A stretch of 64,000 nucleotides of DNA from Chitinophagaceae bacterium (GTDB taxonomy: Bacteria > Bacteroidota > Bacteroidia > Chitinophagales > Chitinophagaceae). The notes under the pieces were generated by a model that made no database searches, was not told where the DNA came from, and saw only the letters and a program-made list of their open reading frames with translations. Position numbers and translations under genes: made by a program. This document shows positions 59,381 to 64,000 of the stretch, in pieces; position 1 is the first letter of the stretch, and every line of letters begins with the position of its first letter. Location of the stretch: contig JALHRP010000014.1 in the NCBI GenBank assembly GCA_022841365.1, positions 1-64,000 on the forward strand. Reading direction: 5' to 3'.

Positions 59381-59599
59381 ACAAATTGAATTTAAGATTG
59401 CAATCAATGGTTCTGATAAGCAGCGTAAAGAATAGAACAAAGTGGAGATTCAAGCGGTTATTGTATTAACGGGCTGCCAAGAGCATGCGTATATGCCAAT
59501 TGTTAAATTGAAGCCAAGAGCAGCTTTTCATTGCAGTGCAATATGTGAACAATTCAACATAAACAAATTTGTAACTGCACAACTGCTCCCCTACATTTG

Positions 59600-59795
59600 C
59601 GATGTAACGGTTCCTGATGTTCATAGTCGGGATTAAAAGGGAAGTCCGGTGTAAATCCGGCGCTATCCCCGTAGCTGTAAAGCGAAGCCCCAACCCCTAA
59701 AGGGGAGTAAGGCAACATCTCAATCTACTTTGCCACTGAATCATATTCGGGAAGGCACATTGAGTTGGTCGTTAAGCCAGAAGACCTGCCGGTAT
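59600..59795 (+). promoter_or_regulatory. Cobalamin (adenosylcobalamin-class) riboswitch
   Basis: Conserved elements gggaagtccggtgtaaatccggcgctatccccgtagctgt, B12 box tgccactg...tcgggaaggca, aagccagaagacctgcc; upstream of btuB-like gene. Confidence 0.93.
59685..59719 (+). repeat. GC-rich palindromic repeat copy A (inside riboswitch)
   Basis: aagccccaaCCCCTAAAGGGGagtaaggcaacatc; 31/35 identical to reverse complement of copy B. Confidence 0.85.
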
Positions 59796-59912
59796 TATTT
59801 CATTAATCATTTGCTTTCGGGTGAAAGGCAGGAGATGTAACGGCTCACAGGCTTTTATATTTTCTATTTCTTTTTCTGGAAGCAGTCACAACAAAACCAT
59901 TTTTCAAAAAAA

Positions 59913-61847
59913 ATGAAAAAGAATTTATTTGTAGTGGCTGCCGGATTATTTTTCAGCAGTCAACTAAATGCACAGACAGACAGCAGTACAAAATCACTGG
60001 AAGAAGTGATTGTAACCGCCAATCGTTTACCACAAAAACAGGCACAAACCGGCAAAGTAATCACTGTAATTGGTCGGGATGTGTTGGAGAAAAGTGCCGG
60101 CCAAACCGTTGCACAGGTGTTAAACACTCAGGCAGGTATCACCATTAACGGAGCATTAAATAATACAGGCACGGTGCAAACAACGTATATGCGTGGAGCC
60201 AACAGCGGACGTACATTGATTTTGCTTGATGGTATTCCGGTGAGTGATCCATCACAGATCAACAATGAATTTGATTTAAACCTCTTGCTGGTGAATGATA
60301 TTGAGCGTATTGAAATTGCCCGTGGTGCACAATCTACTTTATATGGCAGTGATGCGGTTGCAGGTGTCATCAACATCATTACCACAAAAACCAATGTAAC
60401 CAAACCGTTTAATTTCAAAGGATCAGTTGTTGCAGGAAGTTTCAATACTTTTCGAGGGAGTATACAATTATATGGTAAGGCAGATAAATGGAATTACGCT
60501 GTGCGTTCTTCAACCTTCAGCAGCAAAGGATTTTCAACTGCAAAAGATACGGCCGGTAACAAAGGGTTTGATAAAGATGGCTTTCTTGGTTTAACAAACA
60601 GTGCAACGGTGGCATACCAGGCAACTGAACAACTGCAACTGCGCAGTTTTGTACAATACTATCAATACAAAACAAGTCTGGATGAAGGTGGCTTTCGTGA
60701 TGACCGTGACTTTACACAACGCAGCCGCACATTCAATACAGGTACCGGATTTCGTTTTAAAAACAAAGCGGTTGCTTTTACCGGTAACTATATGTACAGC
60801 GAGAGCTATCGGAACTTTTTAAACGACAGTACGCATGCTCCCGGTTTTTCGAAATATGCACAAGATGATTATGCCGGTAAAAATCAGTTTGTAGAATTGT
60901 TTGCAAGTATTGAGTTAGGAAAAGGCTTTACGTTATTGCAGGGAGCTGATTACCGTTACAATTCTTTTAATAATCAGTTTTTATCCATCAGTTCATTTGG
61001 CCCGTTCCGCAGCCGCTTTCGTGATACCAGCATCAGTCAGCAATCCATGTATGCATCGTTGTTATACAATGGACTGAACGAAAAACTGAATGTTGAAATC
61101 GGAGGACGTTTAAATGTACACAGCCGTTACGGAAGCAATTATACATACACATTCAATCCTTCTTATGCGCTTATAAAACAGCTTCGTGTATTTGGAAGTG
61201 TTGCAACGGGTTTTAAAGCGCCGAGTTTGTATCAATTGTATTCATCTGCAGGCAATGCTGATCTGCAGGCAGAAAAAAGCATCAACTACGAAGCAGGTTT
61301 GCAGCATACAGGAAAAAAAATACAGCAGCGTTTGGTTTATTTCTATCGTGAAATAAAAACAGGACTTGAGTTTGATTACATCAATTTCGTGTATTACAAT
61401 ATTCCTAATCAGATTGTGCGTGGTGCAGAGTATGAAGTAAGTGTAACGCCTGTAACCAACCTCAACATTACCGGTAATTACACCTATCTCAATGGAAATG
61501 ATTTTATTCAAAGCCGCACCACTACAAAAGATACGGCTTACAGTTATCTGCTTCGCCGGCCAAAGCATCATCTGAATGTGAACATTGGTTACCGGTTTAA
61601 TAACGGAATATATGTTGCATTAAATGGAAAATACCTCAGTAACCGAAATGATGTGGGTGGTTATCTCAAACCGGATGTACTGCTGAATGCTTACTTTCTT
61701 GCAGGCGCCTATGCCGAATACAAATGGAAAAATCAGCTGCGGTTTTTTATTGATGCACGAAACATCACAAACAAAAAATTCACCGACTTAAACGGGTTTA
61801 ACAGTATTCCCTTTGCTATTTATGCAGGCGCAACAATTGAACTGTAA
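59913..61847 (+). CDS. btuB: TonB-dependent vitamin B12 receptor BtuB-like
   Basis: SLEEVIVTANRLPQKQAQTGKVITVIGRDVLEKSAGQTVAQVLNTQAGITING; downstream of cobalamin riboswitch. Confidence 0.9.
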   Translation: MKKNLFVVAAGLFFSSQLNAQTDSSTKSLEEVIVTANRLPQKQAQTGKVITVIGRDVLEKSAGQTVAQVLNTQAGITINGALNNTGTVQTTYMRGANSGRTLILLDGIPVSDPSQINNEFDLNLLLVNDIERIEIARGAQSTLYGSDAVAGVINIITTKTNVTKPFNFKGSVVAGSFNTFRGSIQLYGKADKWNYAVRSSTFSSKGFSTAKDTAGNKGFDKDGFLGLTNSATVAYQATEQLQLRSFVQYYQYKTSLDEGGFRDDRDFTQRSRTFNTGTGFRFKNKAVAFTGNYMYSESYRNFLNDSTHAPGFSKYAQDDYAGKNQFVELFASIELGKGFTLLQGADYRYNSFNNQFLSISSFGPFRSRFRDTSISQQSMYASLLYNGLNEKLNVEIGGRLNVHSRYGSNYTYTFNPSYALIKQLRVFGSVATGFKAPSLYQLYSSAGNADLQAEKSINYEAGLQHTGKKIQQRLVYFYREIKTGLEFDYINFVYYNIPNQIVRGAEYEVSVTPVTNLNITGNYTYLNGNDFIQSRTTTKDTAYSYLLRRPKHHLNVNIGYRFNNGIYVALNGKYLSNRNDVGGYLKPDVLLNAYFLAGAYAEYKWKNQLRFFIDARNITNKKFTDLNGFNSIPFAIYAGATIEL

Positions 61848-61856
61848 AATAAAAAC

Positions 61857-61886
61857 AACCCGCTGTTGATAACAGCGGGTTTTCAT
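61857..61886 (+). terminator. Hairpin terminator after btuB, directly before the CWC gene
   Basis: AACCCGCTGTT-gat-AACAGCGGGTT perfect 11 bp stem, ttcatt; 7 nt before next ATG. Confidence 0.75.
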
Positions 61887-61887
61887 T

Positions 61888-62106
61888 ATGAGTAAACACG
61901 AAGAAAAAATATGCGACCGTTGTAAAACCGGCTTTGAATGTAAGCCCGGCGATGTAATCAATTGCCAGTGCTATGGCATTACACTGAGTACAGATGCCGA
62001 AACATATATTCAACTGCGTTACAACGATTGTCTTTGCCGCAACTGTCTGCTTCAAATACAACAAACGGATATCAACTTACTGTCGAAAAAAGATTCACAA
62101 CTATAA
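61888..62106 (+). CDS. cysteine-rich CWC family protein
   Basis: KICDRCKTGFECKPGDVINCQCYGI...YNDCLCRNCLLQIQ (9 Cys in 72 aa). Confidence 0.85.
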   Translation: MSKHEEKICDRCKTGFECKPGDVINCQCYGITLSTDAETYIQLRYNDCLCRNCLLQIQQTDINLLSKKDSQL

Positions 62107-62118
62107 TCAACTGATTTC

Positions 62119-63159
62119 ATGACACTGCAAGAACAACTGCAACACAAAATCAACAATAAAACAAAACCATTAGGTGCGTTGGGTATGCTGGAGGATCTGG
62201 CATTGAAGATTGGTATTATTCAAAACAGTTTAACGCCTTCAATCAATAAACCACATATCGTTGTGTTTGCAGGTGATCATGGTATTGCAGCAACAGGAAA
62301 AGTAAACCCCTATCCGCAGGCGGTAACTGCACAAATGGTTTTAAATTTTGTACAGGGTGGAGCGGCCATTAATGTATTTACCAAACAAAACAACATAGGC
62401 TTAACAGTAGTTGATGCCGGTGTGAACGTTGATTTTGATGCTTCGTTGCCGATAGTACATGCAAAGATCAATCATGGTACTGAAGACTACAGTGTATCGC
62501 ATGCTATGACGATAGATGAAGTACATGCGGCAATTGAAAAAGGTGGTGCTATTGTGCAGCAAATTTTTAACAGTGGATGCAATACGATCGGCTTTGGCGA
62601 AATGGGTATTGGTAATACTTCTTCAGCAGCACTCATTATGCATCATGTATTGCAGCTTCCGTTGAATGAATGTGTAGGCAGAGGTACGGGCGCTAACGAC
62701 GAGCAGCTTCAAAAAAAATTATCTGTGCTGGAAGATGTAAGTCGTTTACATCAACTGAATAATACTGATCTCAGTCCACATGAATTACTTAGCCGCATTG
62801 GTGGTTTTGAAATAGCCATGATGGCGGGTGCGTACTTAAAAGCAGCAGAAATGAACATGGTTATTGTTGTTGATGGATTTATCAGTACAGCCGCTTTATT
62901 TGTTGCAGAAAAAATAGCATTACATGATGCTGCCTTACCCCCCTTTAGGGGATGGGGGTTAATATTCGCTCATTGTTCAGATGAAAACGGTCATCGAAAA
63001 ATGTTAGATCATCTGATAGCAAAACCAGTTTTACAATTAGGTATGCGTTTGGGTGAAGGCACAGGCGCAGCATTGGCTATTCCCTTATTGCAAAGTGCAG
63101 TTGCATTCCTGAATGAAATGGCTAGTTTTGAAACTGCGGGTGTGAGTGGTAAAGAATAA
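62119..63159 (+). CDS. cobT: nicotinate-nucleotide--dimethylbenzimidazole phosphoribosyltransferase
   Basis: NNKTKPLGALGMLEDLALKIG; VVFAGDHGIAATGKVNPYPQAVTAQMVLNFVQGGAAINVF; GEMGIGNTSSAALI; GMRLGEGTGAALAIPLLQSAVAFLNEMASFE. Confidence 0.96.
   Translation: MTLQEQLQHKINNKTKPLGALGMLEDLALKIGIIQNSLTPSINKPHIVVFAGDHGIAATGKVNPYPQAVTAQMVLNFVQGGAAINVFTKQNNIGLTVVDAGVNVDFDASLPIVHAKINHGTEDYSVSHAMTIDEVHAAIEKGGAIVQQIFNSGCNTIGFGEMGIGNTSSAALIMHHVLQLPLNECVGRGTGANDEQLQKKLSVLEDVSRLHQLNNTDLSPHELLSRIGGFEIAMMAGAYLKAAEMNMVIVVDGFISTAALFVAEKIALHDAALPPFRGWGLIFAHCSDENGHRKMLDHLIAKPVLQLGMRLGEGTGAALAIPLLQSAVAFLNEMASFETAGVSGKE
62926..62960 (-). repeat. GC-rich palindromic repeat copy B (in frame inside cobT)
   Basis: gatgctgccttacccCCCTTTAGGGGatgggggtt; encodes AALPPFRGWGL. 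Confidence 0.85.
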
Positions 63160-63278
63160 TTTTTGCCGGGAAGAAAAGAAGACCGGAAGAAATCTATTAA
63201 CACGAAGTCACTTCCCGCCTTACCGTTTTGCCCGCATTTCTTTTACCAAAGCAGTTCAAACATTTAACTTGCAAGAAC

Positions 63279-64000
63279 ATGAATACTGATACAACGAATC
63301 ATACTGCTGCTAAGCCCCCTTCAGGGGGTTTGGTGGTACAAATCGAGATATTTTTAACAGCCATCATGTTTTACACCAGAATTCCCTGTCCGAAATGGGT
63401 TACACATGATCCGGAATATCTAAACAAAGCCACACGCTACTTTCCGTTAATGGGTTGGATTGTTGGCGGCATTTGTGCGTTGGTATACACCGGCACTGAA
63501 TTTTTTCTCGGCGCACCCATTGCTATTTTGTTATCAATGATTGCAGGAATACTTACAACAGGCGCTTTTCATGAAGATGGTTTTGCTGATGTGTGTGATG
63601 CGTTTGGTGGTGGCTGGACCAAAGAAAAAATTCTCGACATCATGAAAGACAGCAGGGTTGGTGCATACGGCGCCATCGGTATTTTTCTGATGTTGCTGTT
63701 GAAGTTTACTGCATTAAGTGCTATTCCGTTTAATCAGATGTGGATGGTTTTACTTGCTGCACATAGTTTTTCCCGATTGTGTGCGGTTCTTTTGATTGCA
63801 ACAAGCCGTTATGTTCGGGAGAATGATGATGCAAAAGCAAAACCATTGGCCAAATCAATAACTGCCTATGAAATTATCCCGGCTGTGTTGTTTGGCTTGG
63901 CGCCATTGCTGTTTTTTCAACGTGTAGAAATGCTGTTTGTGTTGATTCTTCCGGTAGCAGGTACTTTTTTGTTGAGAAGATATTTTCATAAATGGATCGG
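63279..64000 (+). CDS. cobS: adenosylcobinamide-GDP ribazoletransferase, C-terminus truncated by window edge
   Basis: Reading from ATG 63279: MNTDTTNHTAAKPPSGGLVVQIEIFLTAIMFYTRIPCPKWV...TGAFHEDGFADVCDAFGGGWTKEKILDIMKDSRVGAYGA. Confidence 0.93.
   Translation, partial: MNTDTTNHTAAKPPSGGLVVQIEIFLTAIMFYTRIPCPKWVTHDPEYLNKATRYFPLMGWIVGGICALVYTGTEFFLGAPIAILLSMIAGILTTGAFHEDGFADVCDAFGGGWTKEKILDIMKDSRVGAYGAIGIFLMLLLKFTALSAIPFNQMWMVLLAAHSFSRLCAVLLIATSRYVRENDDAKAKPLAKSITAYEIIPAVLFGLAPLLFFQRVEMLFVLILPVAGTFLLRRYFHKWI
63306..63338 (-). repeat. GC-rich palindromic repeat copy C (in frame near cobS N-terminus)
   Basis: tgctgctaagCCCCCttcaGGGGGtttggtgg; encodes AAKPPSGGLVV; same frame and layout as copy B but more diverged. 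Confidence 0.65.

Follow-up and report, generated by a model that had tools for sequence, protein, structure and literature searches.

Why should one short hairpin repeat occur three times within a single cobalamin (B12) locus, once in a riboswitch and twice inside enzymes? The locus lies in a 64,000-nt window (positions 1 to 64,000 of contig JALHRP010000014.1, assembly GCA_022841365.1) of a Lacibacter-like bacterium of the Chitinophagaceae; below, "own" refers to the genome holding this window, and G and L labels denote relatives' genomes and individual loci. A first-pass annotation of the window had read the three copies as a mobile or spreading palindromic family. Our analysis indicates that they are probably solo ends or miniature derivatives of an in-frame, non-splicing homing-type element that carries a DUF559 (PF04480) nuclease. 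Three features lay beyond the reach of the earlier annotation: the repeats are linked to a nuclease gene, they keep a strict polarity relative to genes, and solo copies occupy a site that elsewhere holds full nuclease units. The three copies are as follows.

59685..59719, minus strand (G-tail on the minus strand): copy A, a repeat made of a hairpin and a G-tail, core at 59694-59705
62926..62960, plus strand: copy B, an in-frame insert in CobT with a net gain of 7 aa over empty relatives
63306..63338, plus strand: copy C, core at 63316-63327, 37 nt past the cobS start codon, which is the modal distance in the family

Copy A matches the reverse complement of copy B at exactly the 31/35 positions first reported, while the best match elsewhere for random 35-mers of the window is typically 21-23 positions and reaches at least 26 in only 3/400. 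Copy C has the layout of copies A and B. Copies B and C lie in the sense direction, hairpin first and G-tail second, and their peptides, AALPPFRGWGL and AAKPPSGGLVV, had been read correctly. Within the window the core CCCYTNNARGGG is restricted to these three sites, as had been noticed; 0.14 occurrences are expected, and three were reached in 0/100 shuffles.

Alignment of 41 own and 81 GTDB copies gives the consensus ACTCCCCTTTAGGGGNTGGGGGC with ~23 bp conserved; the GTDB copies were picked by a 20-bp pattern, and only their flanks carry independent information. The repeat forms a small hairpin, C4-TTTA-G4, with a G-tail on one side only. The description "palindromic" thus holds for the hairpin and not for the unit, which is asymmetric. 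Likewise, the additional GTAAGGCA[A/G]CATC segment is common to copies A and B, as claimed, and is weakly conserved across the whole family. Each strand offers two open frames, and the repeat encodes PPFRGWG, PPSGG, PLGDGG or PPSPKGE depending on frame and strand. A census of the own genome, combining a pattern search with fetched stretches, found 44 copies of CCCCTNNAGGGG and none of the pattern read backwards; only 3/44 lie in the cob locus. Clustering of the copies, for which chance, local spreading and function had all been offered, is real: 22/44 have a neighbouring core within 4 kb, against ~3 expected, which disfavours chance and favours local spreading. The core is present in 94/150 genomes of the family, at 0 to 106 copies and in a patchy manner even within genera. 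Among GTDB genomes, over 100 stretches contain the exact 20-bp form; they come from Chitinophagaceae, Saprospiraceae, Sphingobacteriaceae, Cytophagales, Flavobacteriales, Bacteroidales and one metagenome-assembled genome (MAG) labelled Thiotrichaceae (Gammaproteobacteria). In that MAG the exact repeats sit on large contigs (L172, L192, L220), reflecting either inter-phylum transfer or a mislabelled bin.

The his operon, in which further copies have empty orthologous sites, connects the repeat to a nuclease gene. There, a DUF559 insertion terminates on its 3' side in the repeat with which HisA begins, and in G543 the DUF559 frame continues directly into HisA. Of the 150 family genomes, 43 have at least 8 cores, and 38 of these carry DUF559; of the 107 with fewer cores, 40 do (p 7e-9). 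We examined 61 DUF559 domains for hairpins with their tails pointing outward, and found them upstream of 24, downstream of 28 and on both sides of 18; random windows gave 0.2% upstream, 0.3% downstream and 0/3000 on both sides, and Y1 loci gave 0/26. The window type of repeat brackets DUF559 in inverted orientation at L248, L324, L132, L134, L334 of G525, and L029 and L032 of the own genome. In the own genome, 2/7 DUF559 genes lie less than 100 bp from a core, against 0.04 expected.

This repeat type flanks mainly one DUF559 subfamily (MFYxASPLIF), which occurs in 19/150 genomes and has window-type repeats on both sides in 10/19 members. Seventeen of the 43 genomes with at least 8 cores carry it, that is, 17/19 carriers versus 26/131 non-carriers are high-copy (odds ratio 34, p 4e-9), and 17/19 carriers have at least 13 cores. 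G525 combines 35 cores and no Y1 gene with one DUF559 gene, flanked by CCCCTTAATCCCCTAAAGGGG and CCCCCTTCAGGGGGTTAGGGGG. The type of hairpin agrees with the DUF559 phylogeny: it changes 16 times on the tree versus 36 times with shuffled labels, a contrast inflated by near-copies and based on few alignment columns. Three genera (own L029, G525 L334 and G459 L382) have either a DUF559 unit or the repeats of such a unit at the umuD/umuC junction, which suggests a recurrent insertion site.

DUF559 units also reside inside other proteins. Of the 61 domains, 29 are embedded in the reading frame of another protein, 100 or more residues of which lie to either side. Hosts identified by Pfam include chorismate synthase (AroC), adenine deaminase, an AMP-binding enzyme, LeuRS at two sites, MetH, the type I restriction R subunit, MetRS, CinA and homocysteine S-methyltransferase. 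A Pfam scan of 13 host proteins returned the host domains and DUF559, and no splicing domain. The window type of repeat is associated mainly with stand-alone DUF559 units, plus fusions to HisA and ArgB. Filled and empty alleles occur at one conserved site across species in AroC, LeuRS and HisA. AroC is filled only in the own genome, G537 and G542 (AKKLMKY[LTPNPSLKER..DUF559..SPSPLGRELEGG]VSIHAEV) and is empty in most Lacibacter (AKKLMTGVSIHAEV). One LeuRS linker exists in all states: empty in L305, L316 and L389, occupied by a solo repeat in L211 (window type) and L390 (another type), and occupied by a full nuclease unit in L291, L293, L295, L306 and L307. The states of this linker are the strongest evidence that solo repeats and nuclease units form one class. 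Two of these loci, L291 (G510) and L293 (G407), contain two DUF559 units at two different sites of a single LeuRS frame, and in L287 (G439) one frame of a type I restriction R subunit has inserted GIY-YIG and DUF559 domains.

A structure model of the stand-alone DUF559 protein of Flavipsychrobacter, encoded at L248 (predicted local distance difference test score, 84), was compared with known structures. It aligned with 3hrl (E 2.8e-5) and with 3r3p, the catalytic domain of the homing endonuclease I-Bth0305I (E 8.8e-4, template modelling score 0.76 by target length), and a DUF559 profile search also reached 3r3p at E 0.003. The predicted fold of DUF559 therefore matches that of I-Bth0305I, an EDxHD, Vsr-like homing endonuclease. 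A DUF559 gene has been placed in the EDxHD family (PMC9403480), and DUF559 has been tied to Vsr-like nucleases (PMC12907096). In the open-access literature on CCCCTTTAGGGG, DUF559, EDxHD nucleases, coding palindromic repeats and nuclease insertions in frame we found no link of DUF559 to hairpin repeats or in-frame insertion; earlier reports elsewhere are possible.

The copies have a strict orientation relative to genes. With orientation assigned by a positional tail score and genes called with a simple hexamer model, N-terminal copies are sense in 31/31 cases (own 9/9, GTDB 22/22) and C-terminal copies are antisense in 15/15 (own 3/3, GTDB 12/12), often supplying the stop codon; adjacency to genes arises in part because the repeat brings start and stop codons of its own. 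In N-terminal copies the core lies mostly 31-49 nt past the start codon, with a mode of 37 nt, as if the hairpin had to avoid the initiating ribosome or the right end of the element included the leader. For intergenic copies, the median distance to a gene is 11-13 nt on the tail side and ~100 nt on the head side (sign tests, p 3e-4 and 3e-12). Some form inverted, tail-out pairs around intergenic spacers that contain no open reading frame (ORF), such as L039:3001/3035 and L032:13895/13936.

The hosts of the three window copies are listed below.

59591..59807, plus strand: cobalamin riboswitch aptamer (RF00174; Rfam 100.5 bits, E 8.6e-25) with copy A in its variable arm
59913..61847, plus strand: gene of a TonB-dependent outer-membrane receptor (ORF of 644 aa) downstream of the riboswitch, given as context; from the riboswitch and its position, its role is presumably BtuB-like
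62119..63159, plus strand: cobT, host of copy B (ORF of 346 aa; orthologs in 12 relatives)
63279..64000, plus strand: cobS, host of copy C, an ORF with its start codon at 63279 that runs off the window; the N-termini of relatives are empty
63282..63338, plus strand: 57-bp in-frame segment right after the cobS start codon, made of a 33-nt leader and copy C, where the empty site has 6 bp

CobT of most Lacibacter relatives reads AKQYNQTITDHCVFAH or near it, the empty state, and that of the own genome reads AEKIALHDAALPPFRGWGLIFAH. In G537 and G544, whose CobTs are among the most similar, this site is occupied by different variants of the hairpin. In G544 (L103), a second palindrome, CCTGCCCGAATGCATCTTTCAGGCGGG, is apparently nested inside the first repeat with the frame kept. 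At the cobS start, relatives have ATG AGAAAG CAAATTGAA, and the own genome and G544 have ATG [57 bp] CAAATCGAG. Copy A falls within a region aligned as a 30-nt insert of the riboswitch, which Rfam nevertheless scores at 100.5 bits. In most Lacibacter relatives (L115-L120) the variable arm is a long stem of AT-rich repeats such as AATGAGTAATCAGTAATGAATGATGAGTAA; repeats seem to collect in this arm as in a sink. When the riboswitch was folded with copy A in place, the prediction showed the small hairpin (z -1.1) and nothing further informative.

The proposal of a spreading element tolerated in both RNA and proteins is borne out by these data: the family has 44 genomic copies, the cobT and cobS sites are empty in most relatives, and the arm hosting copy A holds unrelated repeats in relatives. 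Orthologs that have these residues in the absence of a repeat family were looked for and not found. Judged against relatives, the cobT and cobS copies are inserted in frame at sites that are otherwise empty; a clean 23-bp insertion is not seen everywhere, as cobS also gained the 33-nt leader, residues of cobT were replaced, and the riboswitch arm was variable beforehand. The best explanation of the three copies is that they are tolerated solo insertions with no specific role in B12 metabolism.

We propose the following model as the simplest account, a homing-type element with hairpin ends that are compatible with coding. The anatomy of the complete unit is established by the data: over ~0.45-0.5 kb it consists of an outward tail and hairpin, the DUF559 nuclease gene, and an inverted hairpin and tail. 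The nuclease may cut empty alleles or hairpins, and repair would then copy the unit or its ends. Insertions could persist where the two ends are translated as short Pro/Gly-rich linkers, or where they provide a gene with its start or stop codon. Spread of solo ends or miniature forms would often be local, with retention where they are harmless. Some high-copy genomes lack the cognate nuclease, having either lost it or never acquired it.

Several observations weigh against this model. The 64,000-nt window contains no DUF559. Among the 43 high-copy genomes, 5 have no DUF559 and 26 have no cognate subfamily; the cross-genome association tests ignore phylogeny, and contrasts of core counts with DUF559 within genera are mixed, ~5/8 being in favour. 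Hairpins are recognisable on both sides at only ~1/3 of DUF559 loci, and units inside proteins mostly have longer CTCTCC-type or other hairpins, not the exact window repeat. Target-site duplication is not visible at AroC, nor at cobS, where, as at AroC, short replacements are seen instead. Finally, mobility and cleavage by DUF559 are inferred steps of the model.

An unlikely alternative is that the hairpins came first and spread by some other route, for example by recombination, by errors of replication or through a transposase since lost. DUF559 units would then have landed later, in or between existing hairpins that served as targets and not as the units' own ends. Solo repeats far exceed nuclease genes (44 cores and 7 DUF559 genes in the own genome), the cognate nuclease is missing from some high-copy genomes, and a LeuRS site common to solo repeats and units is compatible with either order. 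However, the sites filled by units in AroC and HisA are hairpin-free in most relatives, hairpin type tracks the nuclease phylogeny, and the ends of the units are inverted with outward tails, as expected of element ends. It is improbable that the copies are selected regulatory or structural elements at gene edges, acting in translation, RNA stability or attenuation and moved or conserved for that function. The strong gene polarity, the 37-nt modal distance and the closeness to start and stop codons would fit such a role, but copy positions differ between close relatives, some copies lie mid-enzyme, few of the 44 are in the cob locus, and copy A occupies an arm of free sequence. A functional RNA hairpin shared across the cob transcript, which the first-pass annotation had raised, is not supported, since the family is genome-wide and relatives lack these copies.

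The layout of foot and hairpin, the dispersal at gene edges and the tail-out pairs also resemble repetitive extragenic palindromic sequences (REPs) and REPINs, and atypical hairpins belong to subclass 2.6 of the Bacteroidetes REP-associated tyrosine transposases (RAYTs; PMC6006769). That a Y1 (HUH) RAYT moved the repeats is nevertheless very improbable: a Y1 gene is absent from genomes with 86, 46, 40 and 35 cores, the repeat flanks 0/30 Y1 loci in relatives, and no GT[AG]G foot stands 5' of the hairpin, the consensus foot being GCCCCCAN. The five Y1 genes of the own genome were rejected as mobilisers because they are flanked by other hairpins. Each of these genes (L056-L060, on C27, C8, C2, C18 and C25) has a hairpin type of its own, for example CCCCGACTTTTAAGTCGGGG; GCACAAGCGAGACGCTTGTGC, as in classical REPtrons. 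Chance likeness of GC-rich palindromes could be invoked for a core of only 12 bp, but its probability is negligible and it is refuted by the counts (3 vs 0.14 expected in the window, 44 vs 0 in the genome) and by the empty orthologous sites.

The homing-type element proposed here would give a repeat family that runs through much of Bacteroidota a likely partner enzyme and a testable mechanism. This family leaves peptides such as PPSPKGE or PPLGDGG at the ends of many proteins. The findings suggest how mobile DNA could give housekeeping enzymes internal loops and N- or C-terminal tails without splicing. With related units in frame inside essential enzymes, a little-studied class of selfish DNA may be lengthening proteins across the phylum. 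We consider about evenly balanced the broader claim that this is a phylum-wide selfish class, in which a Vsr-like nuclease lies between inverted hairpins that serve as coding linkers, invades essential proteins in frame without splicing, and scatters solo ends through genomes, where these extend proteins and create new starts and stops; such a class would differ from inteins, introns and REPtrons. DUF559, a domain of "unknown function" in Pfam, becomes directly testable. Annotation also calls for caution, as starts, stops and insertions near these repeats can derive from the element.

The element shares traits with several known systems. The Rickettsia palindromic elements, with which the repeats had been compared, are ~150 bp long and encode a conserved peptide (Ogata 2000 and 2002, as reviewed in PMC10969869). 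The comparison holds in principle, since in both cases palindromic repeats are tolerated in frame in unrelated proteins, here CobT, CobS, HisH and others with empty orthologs; it does not extend to unit size or a conserved peptide, as the repeat here is ~23 bp with two open frames per strand, gene polarity and a linked nuclease gene. Some copies are like miniature inverted-repeat transposable elements (MITEs) in forming terminal inverted, tail-out pairs around a short non-coding spacer; unlike MITEs, most copies are single ends, including the three in the window, with no usual transposase partner and no target duplication visible at AroC or cobS. Inteins differ by their protein-splicing domain, which is absent around DUF559 in the 13 host proteins. 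REP/RAYT systems (REPtrons) likewise have a single-copy nuclease gene between inverted foot-plus-hairpin repeats, diversity of cognate hairpins and many solo copies at gene edges, but the nuclease here is PD-(D/E)XK-like and not HUH/Y1, the GT[AG]G foot is missing, and the repeats are often in frame within proteins. With EDxHD/Vsr-like homing endonucleases such as I-Bth0305I (3r3p), the element shares the predicted nuclease fold, patchy filled and empty alleles and in-frame residence in essential genes; unlike those, it has no intron or intein, its ends are translated hairpin linkers, its repeats are also dispersed alone, and its cleavage activity is predicted. The element fails the tested defining features of RAYT systems, inteins and Rickettsia palindromic elements, and it works like a REPtron and like a homing element, for which homing in the strict sense is predicted.

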